Assembly (NCBI RefSeq): GCF_000213655.1
Contig: NC_015554.1
Span: forward strand, 3,100,001 to 3,164,000
Source: Alteromonas naphthalenivorans
GTDB lineage: Bacteria; Pseudomonadota; Gammaproteobacteria; Enterobacterales; Alteromonadaceae
DNA length: 64,000 nt
Direction of reading: 5' to 3'
The notes beneath the pieces are model-generated. The model was given only the letters and a program-made list of their open reading frames with translations. It was not told the origin of the DNA and did no database searches. Position numbers and translations under genes: made by a program. Positions 332 through 14,465 of this stretch are shown here, in pieces (within the stretch, counting starts at the first letter, position 1; each line of letters opens with the position of its first letter).

Positions 332-693
332 TTTAATTTCCTCTCGGGGTTAGGCCTCCATATACCCATTGTATCGATCCCACCTAAGTAAATAAGTAGA
401 ACACCCCGATACGCAGTGTTGGTATATGTGTGTTTTAATTAAATTTAATTTACCCTTTTGACCAAACGCTTTTAAGGGCATTCCGTCAGGGCGCGCGCTT
501 TATACCATATTACGCATACCCACTCAAGTTTTACTGCCAGTTTTGCCATTACTTGCATTCTTTAAGACTGCCCCTATACACATTCAATCCTAATGGCTAA
601 AATATACCTATATAGATATATTCTGTGCGTTAACCTCTGCCCTATTTTACAAGCGGTAGCGTAACGGCCTAAATAAACGAATAGAGAGACGCT
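332..693. promoter_or_regulatory. rpsB / map divergent intergenic region
   Basis: No gene is seen here. The rpsB-proximal half should hold the rpsB promoter and 5' leader; in Enterobacteria this leader is the target of S2 feedback, and a short stem (AACAC/GTGTT on the minus strand near 400-420) is visible, but I cannot show that it is an S2 site. For map, a candidate sigma-70 promoter is TTGCAT (553-558), 16 bases, TATACA (575-580). Both promoter assignments are by eye. Confidence 0.4.
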
Positions 694-1935: not shown

Positions 1936-4623
1936 GTGTGTTCAAAAAGCTGTACGCATAGAAGGTGTAATTTGACGCTGCAATCCCTAATAAAAAATAT
2001 TGATCAAATAACGTCGGTTGACGACTTAGTTGCCATCAAGTCGTGTGTAGAAGATAGCTATGCATGGATAAAAGCGTCATTCGATAGCATTCCTGTTAAC
2101 CAACTTGTGACTGGGCGTGCACAATTCGTTGATGCCCTTTTGTGCCATTTGTGGCACCTCTACGGTTTAGACAATGAAAGTGAATTAGCATTATGTGCCG
2201 TAGGTGGCTATGGACGCGGGCACCTTCAACCTTATTCCGACATTGATTTGCTGATAGTGAGCAAACGAACCCTTAAGCCCGACACCCAAGAAAAAGTCAG
2301 TCGTTTTATTACTCTGCTTTGGGATATTAAGCTTGATGTGGGTCAGTCAGTACGTACCATCAAAGAAACCGTCAGCCTTGCCAAAGACGACATTTCCATT
2401 GCCACTAACCTCGTAGAAAGTCGATTGCTTTGCGGCAGCGAATCTATTTTTGAAAAGCTGTGGGATGAAGTAAACGGGCGAAATTCTTGGTCGAGTAAAG
2501 CGTTTTTCTCGGCCAAGTACGATGAACAAAAGCGACGTCACGCTAAATTTAACGGTACAGCGTACAACCTAGAGCCTAACATCAAAGAAAACCCAGGCTG
2601 TTTAAGGGATATCCAGTCTATTGGTTGGGTGGCAAAAAAACACTTTAAAGAATATGACGGCTGGAACCTAGTGGGGCACGGCTACTTTACCGAGCAAGAA
2701 CACAGCGAATTAATCACCTGTAGAATGCATTTGTGGAAAATGCGTTGTGCCTTACATTTGGTTGCAGGGCGAAGTGAAAACCGCCTTCTTTTTGATTACC
2801 AACCTGATGTTGCCGCCATGCTGGGGTATGGAGAAGAAGGAAAAAGTTCAGTTGAAAAGATGATGCGTGACTTCTTCCGCACCGTTGCCCGAGTTTCTGA
2901 ATTGAACCAAATGCTTTTGCAACGGTTCAAGTATGACATGCTTAATCAGAGTGTTCAGCGTACCGCGATTATTAACGAAGATTTCGAATTACTCGATAAT
3001 ATGATTTCGCCTCGCCATGAGAATGCTTTTTCTTCGCCAGAAGCCATTTTAGACTTTTTAAATGTGGTCACTAATACCCCTGAAGTTCAAGGTTTAAGCA
3101 CCACTTGTATTCGCCAAATAAGAAACGCACATCGTACATTTGAGAATGCTTACTTTGTTGAGCGCCCCGCTTGCCGTGAAAAGCTCATGGTCTTGCTAAA
3201 ACAACCCGACTTTTTTAATTTTGGTTGGGACATTATGCATCAGTACGGCATTTTACAAGCTTACTTACCTGAGTGGGATGCCATTGTAGGGATGATGCAA
3301 TTTGATTTGTTTCACGCCTACACAGTGGATGAACATACGCACCGCTTAGTGAAGCACGTGAATTATTTTTTCTCGAAAGAGAACAAAGATTTTCCACGCT
3401 GTGGCCGTATCTGTCGCAATCTAGACAAGCCAGAAGTATTGTATATTGCTGCTATATTTCACGATATCGCTAAAGGTCGTAACGGCGACCACTCAACGCT
3501 AGGCGCCATTGATGTTGCTAAGTTCTGTGAACAGCATGATGTACCGGCGAACGACGCGGCCATGATAAGCTGGCTAGTGGAAAACCACCTGCTAATGTCG
3601 GTAGTGGCGCAGCGCAGAGACATTTACGATCCAGACGTTATCAGTGAATTTGCTGGCGCGGTAAGAAGCCACAACCACTTAAATTTACTTTATACCCTTA
3701 CCCTTGCAGACATTCGGGCAACCAACGATAATTTGTGGAATGATTGGAAAGCATCTCTGCTTAGAGAACTTTATTTAATGACGCAAAAAGCATTAGATAA
3801 CGGGTTACAGTGCCAAGTAACATTAAGTGAGCGAGTGACTACTCACAAATATCAAGCGCAACAAATTCTGCACGAACGCAGGGTTAGCTCTGAATCCATT
3901 GATGGATTATGGGCGCGGTTAGATGATGACTATTTTGTACGATTCAAGCCCACCCAAATTGCATGGCATACCGAAGAAATCGTTAAGGCTCAGGATGATT
4001 GGCTAACACCAGATAGCGACCAGCTTCTCGTTAAAGCCAATGACAACAGTGCAAAAGGCGGCACGGAAATTTTTCTTTTCGGTAAAGATAGAAAAGCCTT
4101 ATTTGCACAAGTAGCTTCCGTTTTAGACAGTCGTAATTGCTCTATTCACGACGCCCATGTTACCGTAACCCGCGATGGCTATGTGTTTGACAGTATGTTG
4201 GTGCTTGAAAATGATGGTTCCAGGCTAACATCTGAGTCCCGAATTCAATCGCTAGAAAAAGCGATTAGCACCCAGCTTGAAAAACCAGGCCGTTCACACG
4301 AAAATAAGCGTAAACTACCTCGACAAATGAAACAGCTAGACGTGCCTACTAAAGTACGCTTTTTCGGTGTGAGCGATGAAGCGACACTCGTTGAGTTAGA
4401 AGCACTAGACGCGCCCGGCATTTTAGCTAAAATTGGCCATGCTTTTGTTGATACTAATGTCACCTTGAAGCTGGCAAAAATTGCTACTATCGGCGAGCGC
4501 GCAGAAGATATATTTATTGTCAGTAATGATGCTGGCAAAGCATTAACCCAAGAACAACAAGTGAGCTTGAAAAAGCGTATCTTGTTTAAACTCGATCAAC
4601 TTGAAGATATCACGATACCATGA
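1936..4623 (+). CDS. glnD: Bifunctional [protein-PII] uridylyltransferase / uridylyl-removing enzyme
   Basis: 895 residues. GlnD senses glutamine and adds or removes UMP on PII proteins, setting nitrogen assimilation. The nucleotidyltransferase signature [17 protein letters not shown] is at about 90-106, with Asp102 and Asp104 as metal ligands. The HD phosphohydrolase motif [13 protein letters not shown] lies near 508-520. Two C-terminal ACT domains begin near 711 ([11 protein letters not shown]) and 819 ([12 protein letters not shown]) and bind glutamine. The start is the GTG at 1936 with AAGG upstream; an in-frame TTG at 1972, also after an AAGG, is an alternative. The stop overlaps the dapD start by 4 bases, so the two are co-translated. 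Confidence 0.96.
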
Positions 4624-6848: not shown

Positions 6849-7172
6849 TTACTTCTTATTGCGTTCGGTAAGTTTATCAAGTGCAAGCAACTGAACTAGG
6901 ATAGATTCGGGACAGTCTGGTGCATACATATGCGCTGCAGGGGAAATTGCCATCTTCCCTGGTAGCTGACCCATCGCTATTAAGTAATGACATTTAGGCA
7001 CAAAAACATACGCCAGCCATTCGAAAAAAGACAGGGTATCAATAGCAAAAGGGGCAGTACTGGCTAATTGCGCCTTGCTAGGTGATTTGTTCGGCCACGT
7101 TTTAGTTTGGCGCATCGCTGTTTCTAGCGTATTTAAATGATACTCGAATTCTTCTATTAACTTCATAGTCAT
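6849..7172 (-). CDS. yqcC: YqcC family protein
   Basis: About 107 residues of unknown function, all-helical in appearance. Conserved YqcC features are a TWPN-like segment, PFAIDTLSFFEWLAYVFVP and the region around MGQLPGKMAISP. The start is placed at the ATG at 7172 (MTMKLIEEF) because this aligns with the E. coli N-terminus; the same frame is open to an ATG at 7232 that has a better ribosome binding site (AAAGGT), so a protein 20 residues longer is possible. It sits directly upstream of truC in the conserved yqcC-truC-yqcA set. Confidence 0.85.
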   Translation of the reverse strand: MTMKLIEEFEYHLNTLETAMRQTKTWPNKSPSKAQLASTAPFAIDTLSFFEWLAYVFVPKCHYLIAMGQLPGKMAISPAAHMYAPDCPESILVQLLALDKLTERNKK

Positions 7173-7334
7173 TACATGGTTTAAGGTTTGCCGTATAGAT
7201 CTGGACGGCAGTATACCAGAGGCAGCACTCATTCCGCTCGCACCTTTAAAAGAACAATGCCTTTGCCTGTCGGCAACTAAAATATGCTAAACTTTGCGCC
7301 CTAAAATCAGTTTTATGAAGTGAGAACGCCTGAA

Positions 7335-8384: not shown

Positions 8385-8690
8385 ATGACACTTCTTGAAT
8401 TAACCTTATGGTTGGGCTTAGGCTTTGTCGCCTTTCAGTTTTGGCGCATACGAAGTATTTCCGAATTTACTGATAGTTACCTGCGCCAGTACTGTAAAAA
8501 CAATCAACTGCAACTGCTCAGTATTGCCAGAGCCAAAACCCGCATTACCTTCAACTACAGCAAGCCTGATTGGCATAATATCTTTGTGTTTGAATTTTCC
8601 GGTAATGGTGAAGACAGATACAGCGGAGAAGTGGAGTTAGTAGGCAAACATATTATAAGAACTACCTTACCACCTCACAGAGTTAATTAA
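8385..8690 (+). CDS. DUF3301 family membrane protein
   Basis: 101 residues. One N-terminal membrane segment (LLELTLWLGLGFVAFQFW) is followed by a soluble domain, probably cytoplasmic, with the pattern YCKNNQLQLLSIARAKTRI and a C-terminal GEVELVGKHI..T.LPPHR. This is the DUF3301 family, usually found directly behind DUF3549 genes, as here. Function is unknown. No terminator is seen immediately after it; the strong hairpin at 8810 belongs mainly to the opposite-strand csrB. Confidence 0.85.
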   Translation: MTLLELTLWLGLGFVAFQFWRIRSISEFTDSYLRQYCKNNQLQLLSIARAKTRITFNYSKPDWHNIFVFEFSGNGEDRYSGEVELVGKHIIRTTLPPHRVN

Positions 8691-8803
8691 GTTCTTCGGA
8701 TTCGTTAGCCCGCTATAGTATTAGGTATGAACGAGATGACTATGCCGAGCGGAATGGGCGTCTTTAAACGTGAGCGTTTTAGTGGCAACGCCAAAAATTA
8801 CGC

Positions 8804-8838
8804 AAAAAAAAGGGGTAGCCTCTCTGCTACCCCTTTTC
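8804..8838 (-). terminator. Intrinsic terminator of csrB
   Basis: On the minus strand AAAAGGGGTAGC, a short loop and GGCTACCCC are followed by eight U residues (A-run 8804-8811 on the plus strand). It is the strongest terminator in the area and fixes the direction of the RNA. The complementary A-run means it may also act weakly on plus-strand readthrough from DUF3301. Confidence 0.9.
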
Positions 8839-9478
8839 CTGGAATTTTGAGTTTCCCTCTCTGCGTTCCTTTGCGACTAAAATCTTCCCGATTAAAATCC
8901 ATATACGCCCCTTTCCATCTTCTCTCGCGTGTTCCCGTGCGAGTTACCCATCCTTGCGTAAATCCCTTTCCATTTATCCTAAGCATCCCATCTATCCTGC
9001 ACGTGGGGGCCTCATCCTAAGGCTGTTCCTTGCCAGCAAAAGCTAGTGTTCCTATCCTTTCATCCTTTCTACATTACACATCCTGTGCAACTAGCTCAAT
9101 CCTTAAGCGGTCCGTTCGTTCCTGAGCTGCCTTGCTCTTGCGCATCCTGCGCAAACTATCCTTGCTTAAGCCTTCCAAGCTTTCCTTTACGATATATCCT
9201 ATATCTTTCCTTTTTATGACGATCCTTCGCCAAATCCTTTCTACTTCCTGTTGCGATTCCTTATCGCTTGCGCTTTCCTTGCTTGTCTCTTTGGCAATTC
9301 CATTTCAGCACGTCCGGTGCGCTTATCATCCCTGTGATGCTTCCTGCTATTCCATCTCCCCTCACTCCTGTTAAGGGATTCTCTTCCTTAAGTTGTCCAA
9401 GGTTGTCCTTAAAATCATCCTGACTCATCGTGTTTCCCTGTGACGCCATTAATAATATCCCTACCAAGAATTCCCGCT
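8804..9478 (-). ncRNA. csrB: CsrB-type regulatory RNA (CsrA sponge), unusually large
   Basis: On the minus strand this 675-base stretch carries about 47 GGA triplets, of which about 28 are AGGA, the CsrA recognition core. Several sit exactly in hairpin loops: 9138-9154 (7-bp stem, loop GGA), 9191-9205 (6-bp stem, loop GGA), 9074-9090 (7-bp stem with one wobble, loop GGA) and 9253-9267 (5-bp stem, loop AAGGA). It ends in a strong terminator with a U-run at 8804. A -10-like TGTAAT (complement of 9486-9491) puts the start near 9478. E. coli csrB also lies between yqcC and syd, and both flank this locus here. CsrB RNAs titrate CsrA, freeing its target mRNAs. E. coli CsrB is about 370 bases, so this one is nearly twice as long. 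The 5' end is inferred. Confidence 0.86.
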
Positions 9479-9600
9479 AGGCAGAATTACAATAAATTAA
9501 GGAGAAAATAAGGAGTTAATATGATCTGAAAATGAAAAACCTATAAAAATCAACAACGTTAGACTTTAGTCTAGATATAAACCACGAAAAAAAACCCACA

Positions 9601-9631
9601 TTTCCTACACTTTTGTAGGAAATGTCGTACA
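9601..9631. promoter_or_regulatory. Dyads upstream of csrB, candidate UvrY/GacA site
   Basis: TGTAGG-N6-CGTACA at 9614-9631 differs at two positions from the GacA/UvrY consensus TGTAAG-N6-CTTACA. It lies about 140-150 bases upstream of the inferred csrB start, a usual distance for csrB-type genes. It overlaps a perfect palindrome, TTTCCTACA-CTTT-TGTAGGAAA (9601-9622). A further perfect dyad, TAGACT-TT-AGTCTA, lies near 9560-9574. The assignment is by consensus and position only. Confidence 0.45.
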
Positions 9632-9740
9632 AAGCTTGTCGTCATTATGACCAATTGCGAATTTTGCCGGTCATTACAGTCGCCATTAAGACGAGTATTT
9701 TCTGTACTGAGATTGATTGATGAGTATGAACCCACTAAAA

Positions 9741-9760
9741 TACTGTACAAATAAACAGTA
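9741..9760 (+). promoter_or_regulatory. LexA box of the umuDC operon
   Basis: TACTGTACAAATAAACAGTA fits CTGT-N8-ACAG exactly with extended TA ends. It ends 12 bases before the umuD ATG. A candidate -35 (TTGATG, 9717-9722) with 18-base spacing would make the TACTGT of the box the -10, so LexA would cover the promoter. This marks umuDC as SOS-induced. Confidence 0.92.
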
Positions 9761-9772
9761 TTTTTGAAGTGT

Positions 9773-10186
9773 ATGCTTAAATTTATTCCTATCACTGCAC
9801 AAGCGGGCATCGTAGGCTTCGAGTCGCCTGCTGCAGAATATACCGAACTAGGCTTGAGTCTAGATTCTCTGCTTATTGATAAACCTGCTGCTACCTTCAT
9901 TGGCTACGCACAAGGCAAGTCGATGATGGACGATGGCATTCATGACGGCGACCTGCTGATTGTCTCAAGAGCTGAAGATATTTCTGACATGTGCATTATT
10001 GTGGCGACCTTAAACGGTGAGTTCGTCTGTAAGCGTGTAGACAAACGCCACGGCTGCTTGCGTTCTTCATCACCCTTGTACAAACCTTACTTTTTAAAAG
10101 AAGGCGATGAATTTTCAATAGAAGGGGTGGTAACGCGCTCCATTAGGCTTCACAAAAAACTCTCCCGTCGACTAGGAGGTGAGTAG
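9773..10186 (+). CDS. umuD: Translesion polymerase V autoproteolytic subunit UmuD
   Basis: 137 residues from ATG 9773 (an upstream in-frame TTG at 9764 is unlikely). UmuD is cleaved with RecA help after DNA damage to give UmuD', the partner of UmuC. The S24 Ser-Lys dyad is Ser50 (AQGKSMMDDGI) and Lys87 (EFVCKRVDK), with the same 37-residue spacing as E. coli Ser60/Lys97. The region matching the cleavage site is IVGFESPAAEY, so the scissile pair would be Val14-Gly15 instead of Cys-Gly, and the N-terminal arm is about 10 residues shorter. The stop overlaps the umuC GTG by one base. Confidence 0.94.
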   Translation: MLKFIPITAQAGIVGFESPAAEYTELGLSLDSLLIDKPAATFIGYAQGKSMMDDGIHDGDLLIVSRAEDISDMCIIVATLNGEFVCKRVDKRHGCLRSSSPLYKPYFLKEGDEFSIEGVVTRSIRLHKKLSRRLGGE

Positions 10187-11442
10187 TGTTTGCGCTAGTA
10201 GATGTCACTTCTATGTATGCATCGGTCGAGAAAATCTACAACCCTAATCTGCGAAACAAACCCGTTATGGTGTTGAGCAATAACGATGGCTGCGTGGTCG
10301 CAGCCTGCCCTATTGCCAAAAGATTAGGATTTAAAAAGTTCGTTCCCTATTTTCAGGTGAAAGAGGAAGCAAAAAAAGCAGGGGTTGTTGTTTGCTCGTC
10401 TAACTATGAGCTTTATGCCGATGTGTCTTCAAAAATGTTTTCTGTCATGTCTCAATTCTGTGATGAATTGCACGAATACAGTATTGATGAAGCTTTCATG
10501 CGCTTTTCGCCACGCCTACATGATAGTGAATGGCTGGCCCTAGGCTATGAGATAAGAAAAACTATTTGGCGTGAGGTAAAGCTTCCCGTGGGCGTTGGAT
10601 TTGGCCCCACTCCAACCCTTGCTAAAGCAGCTAATCACGCTGCAAAAAAGCTGGACGGCTTTCGAGGTTCAGCGGTTATTAATACGCAGCAAGAAAAGCA
10701 GGCATTATTACCCCGCATGGCAGTAGCAGATGTATGGGGTATTGGTGGGCGCTTGGAAAAACGATTGATGGCCATGGGTATTAATAATGCCTATACACTG
10801 TCACAACAATCCCCCGCTAAAATGCGTAAGTATTTTTCTATTGTGCTAGAAAATACAGTGAGAGAACTTCAGGGTGAACTAAGAATGACGTGGGATGAGA
10901 TAAGACCCGCTAAAAAAGAAATTTACAGCACCCGTAGTTTTGGAAAGAGAGTTACCACACAAGATGAATTGAGAGCAGCGTTAGCCACCCACGCTGAAAT
11001 AGCCACTAAAAAACTACGCGCTCAACACTCACTCGCTCACAGCGCCACCTTCTTTGCGGCAAATTCGCCTCATGACGATAGCAGATATGTTAAGCAGTCG
11101 GCGCTTTCCAGCTTTGCTGTTCCTACCAATGATACTCGACATATTATTCACGCAGCGTCTGATGCGCTCAATAAACTGTTTATTCCAGGCGTGCGTTACT
11201 ACAAAGTGGGTGTGGGTCTGTTGGACATTTGCGACGAAAAATATCGCCAAGACGATTTATTTACACCCAGTACGGACAACTCGGCATTAATGGCAGTGCT
11301 TGACAGTACAAACGCTAGATATGGCAGAAACACGATGCATTTTGGGGCTAGGGGCTTTCAACAAAATTTTGCCATGAAAAGAGACTTCTTAACGAAAAGA
11401 GCCACTACCCGATGGGAAGAGATCCCGCGCATTAAATGTTGA
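10186..11442 (+). CDS. umuC: DNA polymerase V catalytic subunit UmuC
   Basis: 418 residues, Y-family polymerase that copies past lesions. Active-site features are visible: Asp6 in ALVDVTSMYAS with Tyr11 as steric gate, SNNDGCVVA, SSNYELYAD, and YSIDEAF with the second catalytic acids near 100-104. A helix-hairpin-helix-like segment (VADVWGIGGRLEKRL) is near 180-195. QDDLF at about 355-359 fits the beta-clamp binding motif QxxLF. Start GTG at 10186 overlaps the umuD stop by one base, so the pair is co-translated under the LexA box. No clear terminator follows; the next gene is convergent. Confidence 0.96.
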   Translation: MFALVDVTSMYASVEKIYNPNLRNKPVMVLSNNDGCVVAACPIAKRLGFKKFVPYFQVKEEAKKAGVVVCSSNYELYADVSSKMFSVMSQFCDELHEYSIDEAFMRFSPRLHDSEWLALGYEIRKTIWREVKLPVGVGFGPTPTLAKAANHAAKKLDGFRGSAVINTQQEKQALLPRMAVADVWGIGGRLEKRLMAMGINNAYTLSQQSPAKMRKYFSIVLENTVRELQGELRMTWDEIRPAKKEIYSTRSFGKRVTTQDELRAALATHAEIATKKLRAQHSLAHSATFFAANSPHDDSRYVKQSALSSFAVPTNDTRHIIHAASDALNKLFIPGVRYYKVGVGLLDICDEKYRQDDLFTPSTDNSALMAVLDSTNARYGRNTMHFGARGFQQNFAMKRDFLTKRATTRWEEIPRIKC

Positions 11443-13808: not shown

Positions 13809-14366
13809 TCATTCAGCTCGTAGTGTGGCTATGAATGCCGGCAGGCTTGGCGAAATGACTTTTTGTGGTGGCCTTCCAACTTGTTCTAACACCACTTCTC
13901 CAGTGCTATTTAACACACTCAAAACAAAATCATCTTCATCGGTTAATGCAAAAAAGAGTGTTGGCGCTTGTTTCAGTCTCTTTTTCATTAATAGGTGTCC
14001 AATTAAATTTTGTTGAAGCCGCTCAAAGTCTTCTTCATTCCAAACTTGCAATAACTCACAAGCCCCATGCTCTGCAGCTACTGGTAAATTGTTACTGAAA
14101 AATTGGGTAAAGAACTGACAAAAATCAGCGTTGAGCTTAATGTCTAATGCCTCTTCAACATTCTTAAAACTTAGCGCAGACTGCTGACTGTCACTTTGGC
14201 GCTTGGGCTCCCACGGTACCAATTCACCCTCATCACCCTGCTTTAAGTAGCAAGGTGAGGGCCATTGACTATCATAAGGTATAGTCAGCAGACTGCCACT
14301 GCGCTCATGATGGGAAGTGAAAGCACCGATAAGTTGGGTTAATTCATTACTAATTGTTAAGGCCAT
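13809..14366 (-). CDS. syd: SecY-interacting protein Syd
   Basis: 185 residues from ATG 14366 (MALTISNELTQLIGAFTSHH); the frame is open to 14435 but the extra part is not Syd-like. E. coli Syd binds the SecY cytoplasmic surface and may proofread the translocon. Diagnostic regions are SKxx-like PYDSQWPSPCY, LQVWNEEDFERLQQNLIGHL, and KRLKQAPTLFFALTDEDD, close to the E. coli sequence, and the C-terminal SLPAFIATL. It is divergent from queF, as in E. coli, where csrB is also next to syd. Confidence 0.94.
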   Translation of the reverse strand: MALTISNELTQLIGAFTSHHERSGSLLTIPYDSQWPSPCYLKQGDEGELVPWEPKRQSDSQQSALSFKNVEEALDIKLNADFCQFFTQFFSNNLPVAAEHGACELLQVWNEEDFERLQQNLIGHLLMKKRLKQAPTLFFALTDEDDFVLSVLNSTGEVVLEQVGRPPQKVISPSLPAFIATLRAE

Positions 14367-14465
14367 TATGGGGTTACACCAATATTTTTGAGGTACACTA
14401 TAGGTATAAGGTGCCAAGTTCAAGTAAGACGGCACATCTAAAACGGTTAGAATATATAGGTAAAT

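Follow-up and report, generated by a model that had tools for sequence, protein, structure and literature searches.

The gap between the DUF3301 gene and an umuD-like gene of Alteromonas naphthalenivorans (8690 to 9764 of the window, that is, the whole stretch of 64,000 nucleotides analysed here) can with high confidence be assigned to csrB, a gene for a minus-strand RNA of about 641 nt that would be activated by UvrY and sequester CsrA. The CsrB-type nature of the RNA had been proposed in an earlier sequence-only reading of this DNA, and it is upheld here because synteny, a promoter layout with the UvrY box at a conserved distance, a predicted structure that exposes GGA and carries compensatory changes, and Rfam matches below threshold all point to it. 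The RNA is a lengthened member of the known CsrB family; what is new is the size range and the contrast between length and copy number.

In the mechanism that we propose, phosphorylated UvrY would bind an 18-bp box at -187 and switch the promoter on, and the minus strand would be transcribed into a non-coding RNA some 641 nt long. This RNA would present about 45 GGA, many of them in loops or single strands, two GGA would hold each CsrA dimer, and CsrA would be drawn off its mRNA targets. The number of sites would be about that of two ordinary CsrBs, reached through growth of the middle part. CsrB sets the level of free CsrA in the cell. The genome has a single csrA (PF02599 found once) and a uvrY orthologue (NF007018, 302.8 bits, cut-off 280); the best BarA candidate scored 612.4 bits against a cut-off of 890.

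Gene order and parts of the locus

The order in the window is flavodoxin, truC, yqcC, DUF3549, DUF3301, the RNA, umuD, umuC, GFA, GNAT, further ORFs, syd and queF (Table 1). In E. coli it is yqcA, truC, yqcC, csrB, syd and queF, and csrB shares its strand with yqcC and syd, as it does in the window. The two genes named earlier as flanking the RNA, yqcC and syd, are thus present and in the E. coli order, but neither is adjacent to it. The strong terminator that had been said to close the RNA is there as well (8833-8804), a stem-loop followed by eight T. In the same gap as csrB, just upstream of the umuD-like gene, lies CTGTTTATTTGTACAG (9758-9743), which we take to be a LexA-like box.

Table 1. 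Features of the csrB locus (window positions)
Feature	Position	Strand	Basis
csrB gene, predicted RNA of ~641 nt	8804..9444	-	5' end from conservation, 3' end from terminator
Conserved 5' leader GTCACAGGGAAACACGATGAGTCAGG	9419..9444	-	Alignment of 70 relatives' promoter regions; comparison with E. coli csrB
-10 element TATTAT, 7 nt before the 5' end	9452..9457	-	Conserved TANTAT-like element
UvrY/GacA box TGTACGACATTTCCTACA, 18 bp, start at -187	9614..9631	-	Predicted site; E. coli counterpart TGTGAGAGATCTCTTACA
Accessory half-site TGTAGGAAA, 4 bp downstream of the box	9601..9609	-	Sequence; cited passage of PMC4682653
Near-palindrome CTAGACTAAAGTCTAA, second promoter element	9559..9574	-	Conserved in relatives' promoters
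Expanded middle part, ~377 nt	9038..9414	-	BLASTN of window RNA against short copies
Conserved 3' domain, common to short copies	8834..9037	-	BLASTN against short copies; alignment of relatives
Hairpin TTGCGCA-GGA-TGCGCAA, loop = GGA	9138..9154	-	MFE fold
Hairpin presenting CAGGATG, two-sided changes at two pairs	9073..9091	-	Covariation analysis
Intrinsic terminator GGGGTAGC-AGAGAG-GCTACCCC, then eight T	8804..8833	-	Sequence
DUF3301 gene, neighbour at the 3' side of the RNA	8385..8690	+	PF11743
yqcC (DUF446)	6849..7232	-	PF04287
syd (SecY-interacting protein)	13809..14435	-	NF003439, 194.3 bits, cut-off 153
umuD-like and umuC-like genes, between the RNA and syd	9764..11442	+	PF00717; PF00817, PF11799, PF13438

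Promoter and 5' end

The 5' end was deduced from an alignment of 70 promoter regions from relatives rather than mapped. About 7 nt after a TANTAT-like -10 element these regions carry a conserved block, GTCACA or GTCGCA followed by AGGGA/AAGGA, and the first G of this block in the window is 9444, so that the RNA would run from 9444 to 8804 (641 nt, 45 GGA, 28 AGGA). The length of about 675 bases given earlier therefore shrinks to about 641 nt with a 5' end some 34 nt further in, and "nearly twice" the E. coli CsrB becomes 1.7 times its 369 nt. The 5' half of the window RNA contains 23 GGA and its 3' half 22, with a mean spacing of 13.6 nt.

The putative UvrY box is present within one mismatch in 59/59 Alteromonas genomes. 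Among the 74 box-bearing genes of these genomes it starts at -187 in 42 and at -186 in 21 (63/74), the remaining positions being -188 (3), -189 (3), -185, -182 and -175 (3), which gives an overall range of -189 to -175. The same measurement in the control, E. coli MG1655, places the box TGTGAGAGATCTCTTACA at -191. In the cited passage of PMC4682653 the E. coli UvrY footprint has its centre at -183/-182, and a further TGTAGGAGA follows 5 bp downstream.

Between the box and the promoter, at -126 to -123, a near-palindrome of the ACTAAAGT type is found in 39/47 single-copy csrB promoters and in 1/26 promoters of multi-copy genomes. These counts use a looser pattern; a stricter one gave 21/73 promoters and missed the window itself. 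This second element is a point in favour of an alternative in which the RNA would titrate some other protein that recognises GGA, or would bind CsrA but answer to a regulator different from UvrY. We regard this as very unlikely, as csrA and a uvrY orthologue are both in the genome and, in both its sequence and its distance, the box agrees with the E. coli site known from footprinting. In its own genome the ACTAAAGT-type element has 23 matches (21 sites, at most one mismatch) compared to 5 with the reversed pattern. One of these sites lies upstream of a TonB receptor-like gene, named by eye from a translation-like start and the gene list of PMC5864184.

Two candidates for a second csrB were set aside. 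The BLAST match at G000:C1:729969 is only the shared promoter element upstream of the TonB receptor-like gene, and the box-like site at 2357469 (one mismatch) has no GGA island. GGA islands were also absent from 13 further box-like sites and two more, which had at most 10 GGA per 300 nt compared to 23-24 in four csrB loci.

Motif enrichment

An exact recount of the minus strand at 8804-9478 gave the same 28 AGGA and 47 GGA as the sequence-only reading. Elsewhere in the window the richest 675-base stretch has 7 AGGA and 11 GGA if the minus strand is read and 6 AGGA and 13 GGA if the plus strand is read, and the mean number of AGGA per such stretch outside the locus is 1.3 and 1.0, respectively. 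Mononucleotide shuffles of 8804-9478 contain 8.0±2.7 AGGA, and dinucleotide shuffles (n=1000) contain 10.1±2.9 AGGA with a maximum of 19 and 27.4±3.4 GGA with a maximum of 39. The chance expectation of "two or three AGGA" given earlier depends on the null that is chosen. Compared with its own shuffles the stretch, rich in purines as it is, has a real excess that is about 3-fold and not 10-fold, and thus smaller than first estimated.

Predicted structure and covariation

Folding was done with a pairing span limit of 120 and compared with 100 shuffles that left every GGA in place. In the predicted fold of the window RNA 30/45 GGA are fully unpaired, compared to 18.1±2.7 (maximum 25) in the shuffles. 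The claim that at least four AGGA form hairpin loops is borne out, as 7/28 AGGA lie in loops closed by at least three pairs in the MFE structure; spacer shuffles give 3.0±1.9 (maximum 9), and the loop count alone is thus not decisive. Unpaired GGA exceed the shuffled mean by more than 2 sd in seven of the eight genomes tested (G012 falls just under 2) and lie above every shuffle in six, namely the window and 5/7 related genomes. In the other two the shuffles reach the observed value (G012, 26 with a shuffle maximum of 27; G034, 24 with a maximum of 24).

For covariation, 18 long RNAs picked as alignable from the 47 single-copy genes plus named relatives were aligned. Their consensus fold has 89 pairs, of which 19 show two-sided changes, compared to 12.8±1.5 in column shuffles and 2-9 when the partners are slid. 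Across 500 column shuffles, cells are paired in 94.8±0.3% and double-change cells number 25.0±3.7; the observed values are 98.9% and 78. The number of further pair types did not exceed the shuffles (52 vs 49.7±1.6, reached by 54/500). Sliding the partners lowers pairing to 38-49%, although this control is flattered, since the structure was derived from the same alignment. Within two columns, 32/45 window GGA are kept in at least 15/17 relatives, and nearly all the rest fall in the middle part, which is variable. Conservation of exact GGA triplets is 0.64, compared to a mean of 0.42 for other frequent triplets, with ACA and TTT equal to GGA.

Small ORFs occur on both strands of the locus, the longest having 68 aa on the strand of the RNA and 97 aa on the opposite one, and one could take the locus for a protein-coding gene or its remnant, or for purine-rich low-complexity DNA in which AGGA is noise resembling ribosome-binding sites. 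It is extremely improbable that this is so: the sequence diverges with indels, yet many GGA positions and pairs are kept, and the promoter and the terminator are conserved.

Rfam model

The check with the Rfam CsrB model, RF00018, finds the locus, but only below the gathering score (71 bits), which is not reached in the window. With permissive settings the model gives 22 bits at 9172-8802 and, in a search of the whole genome, 25.7 bits at window 9072-9273; at E<=1 the whole-genome search found the window locus alone. The sole match at gathering level to any Rfam family in the 64-kb window is a t44 RNA (349-450, minus strand, 62.6 bits).

Eight related loci, six from Alteromonas and two from other genera, were tried with the same model. 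At E 0.1 it gave seven matches in five of them (L144, L116, L021, L017 twice, L099 twice), all below 71 bits, and no match in L060, L083 and L150, the first two of which are long Alteromonas genes. The short Alteromonas copies in L116 and L099 reach 42-50 bits, and the matches nearly agree with the independently predicted genes (260-602 vs 264-602 in L116; 2861-3204 and 1576-1912 vs 2862-3204 and 1581-1911 in L099). In L017, two consecutive matches of CsrB length, 1115-1425 (25.5 bits) and 1440-1786 (48.2 bits), cover one gene of 623 nt (1160-1782). None of the six Alteromonas loci is over the threshold, which suggests that the model under-detects the family here. The gathering score is a detection threshold and not a biological feature, and a miss was not treated as excluding CsrB.

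Length and copy number

The DUF3301 gene and at least one csrB were found in 59/59 Alteromonas genomes searched. In the 47 genomes with a single copy, csrB is 387-835 nt long (median 576) and at least 600 nt in 20/47, so that the great length of the window gene is not unique. The other 12 have two or three copies of 331-446 nt, a range that leaves aside one copy with a misplaced end and another that is cut; in L091 (G002) and L099 (G060), for example, two copies lie near each other, each with a UvrY box and a terminator. Length and the number of GGA are correlated at 0.97, with a density of 6.9±0.5 GGA per 100 nt. The longest csrB, that of G009 (L083:386-1220), measures 835 nt, contains 53 GGA and has a repeat within it, offset by 140 nt. 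The site total per genome is not constant, with 28-53 GGA in single-copy, 41-48 in two-copy (one copy cut short in G022) and 64-79 in three-copy genomes. DUF3301 proteins are most divergent in the 12 multi-copy genomes (44-49% identity), which, judged from these sequences, are probably one clade, and because of this length versus copy number counts as one contrast and not many.

Among other genera of the family, one DUF3301 neighbourhood was taken from each of 40. A GGA island is present in 19 of them, several cut or without a clear end; the 21/40 without an island concern that neighbourhood only and not csrB elsewhere. A length was obtained from 12, and ten of these span 322-431 nt (L139 and L164 were left out, their box distance being off).

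Two parts of the window RNA, its first 30 nt and its 3' domain (positions 408-611), align with the short copy of G075, and between the aligned ends there are about 377 nt in the window and about 83 nt in G075. Other short copies of the G075 type align alike; a second type shares a shorter 3' end and partly the 5' end. Fusion of two tandem csrB copies found no support as the origin of the long RNA, as short copies like that of G075 match both of its ends and the growth lies between. An internal repeat exceeds 20 shuffles in three of eight genomes, G066, G009 and G017 (20, 21 and 25 vs maxima of 15, 15 and 16), and does not in the window (13 vs 14), G028, G012, G005 and G060.

Whether most of Alteromonas has raised CsrA sequestration by lengthening a single csrB and not by gaining copies, with Aln1a-c of A. 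macleodii (see below) being 5' ends or pieces of one long RNA, seems to us evenly balanced. If the lengthening is true, one transcript would have as many sites as two CsrBs, with 45 GGA over 641 nt in the window and as many as 53 over 835 nt elsewhere in the genus. With genes of 331-835 nt at near-constant site density, the genus offers a natural gradient along which the effects of sites per RNA and of gene number could be told apart.

Relation to Aln1a-c

In G066, which we take to be probably A. macleodii, 169 kb separate csrB (at about 1.0156 Mb) from csrA (at 1.185 Mb). In A. macleodii Te101, Aln1 lies about 128 genes before csrA according to locus tags, if the tags step by 5 (PMC5864184). 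The same report, in the parts cited here, describes Aln1a-c as three A(N)GGA-rich sRNAs with three nTSSs by dRNA-seq in an intergenic gap of 404 bp, as the most highly expressed genes of the data set, and as the counterpart of CsrB-C, and the promoter motif of Aln1a as common to TonB receptors. The ACTAAAGT element of the window promoter likewise seems common with a TonB receptor-like gene. To judge from these sequence features and the cited parts of that report, the Aln1a-c locus is very probably the window csrB locus, and the window RNA is for this reason not the first report in the genus. Percent identity was discarded as proof: G066 and G012 share 85.5% without gaps and 82.3% with gaps (82.0/75.7% over the first 404 nt), values compatible with the average of 77% given for Aln1 (PMC5864184). 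The ORFs of L106 did not yield a gap of 404 bp.

The Te101 data also speak in favour of several shorter CsrA-binding RNAs from separate internal starts instead of one RNA of 641 nt, as three sRNAs and three nTSSs do not match a simple long transcript, and the distance of about 128 genes compares with the 169 kb in G066. We consider this unlikely, though less so than the other alternatives. Single-copy genomes have a single GGA-associated UvrY box, internal matches to the 5'-end pattern within the RNAs come without a box, and the short copies in the genus each form one unit laid out in the same way. A promoter scan found no minus-strand site at the locus or inside the RNA, an argument of little weight, since it missed the predicted promoter too.

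Synteny and promoter connect CsrB with Aln1, RNAs that are abundant in a marine copiotroph. The literature searched, whose coverage leaves out most subscription journals, showed no Alteromonas CsrB study besides PMC5864184, and the cited part of an RNA-seq study of A. macleodii strains (PMC4223743) does not mention the Aln1/csrB locus.

Comparison with known systems

The E. coli CsrB (b4408, RF00018) is like the window RNA in neighbourhood, strand, repeated GGA and its 5' start, GTCGACAGGGAGTCAG. Its box is at -191 compared to -187 in the window, with the half-site TGTAGGAGA 5 bp after it compared to TGTAGGAAA 4 bp after. It differs in size (369 nt and 22 GGA vs 641 nt and 45 GGA), and the window RNA is set apart from it by other genes intervening on both sides and by scoring below the Rfam threshold. 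For E. coli CsrB, 366 nt and 22 sites with up to 18 dimers are given in the cited section of PMC3856055. The CsrA dimer capacity of the window RNA could be about twice that of E. coli CsrB, going by the proportion of GGA counts alone.

Aln1a-c of Te101 share with the window RNA the genus, the richness in A(N)GGA, a distance to csrA in the right range and a promoter motif shared with TonB receptors, whereas they are described, in the parts of that report cited above, as three sRNAs from a 404-bp gap and not as one predicted RNA of 641 nt. Pf1 of Pseudoalteromonas fuliginea also belongs to the CsrB family, has a GacA box and affects CsrA-controlled glycogen in E. coli, but it has about 21 GGA and its matches are reported within its genus only (PMC9927453, cited passage). 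In Shewanella oneidensis, CsrB1 and CsrB2 likewise have a UvrY box and many AGGA and depend on UvrY, but they are two copies with predicted lengths of 420 and 421 bp (PMC3171408, cited portion). Bands of about 700, 600 and 450 are given there for csrB2, and long CsrB forms may thus exist in Shewanella oneidensis too.
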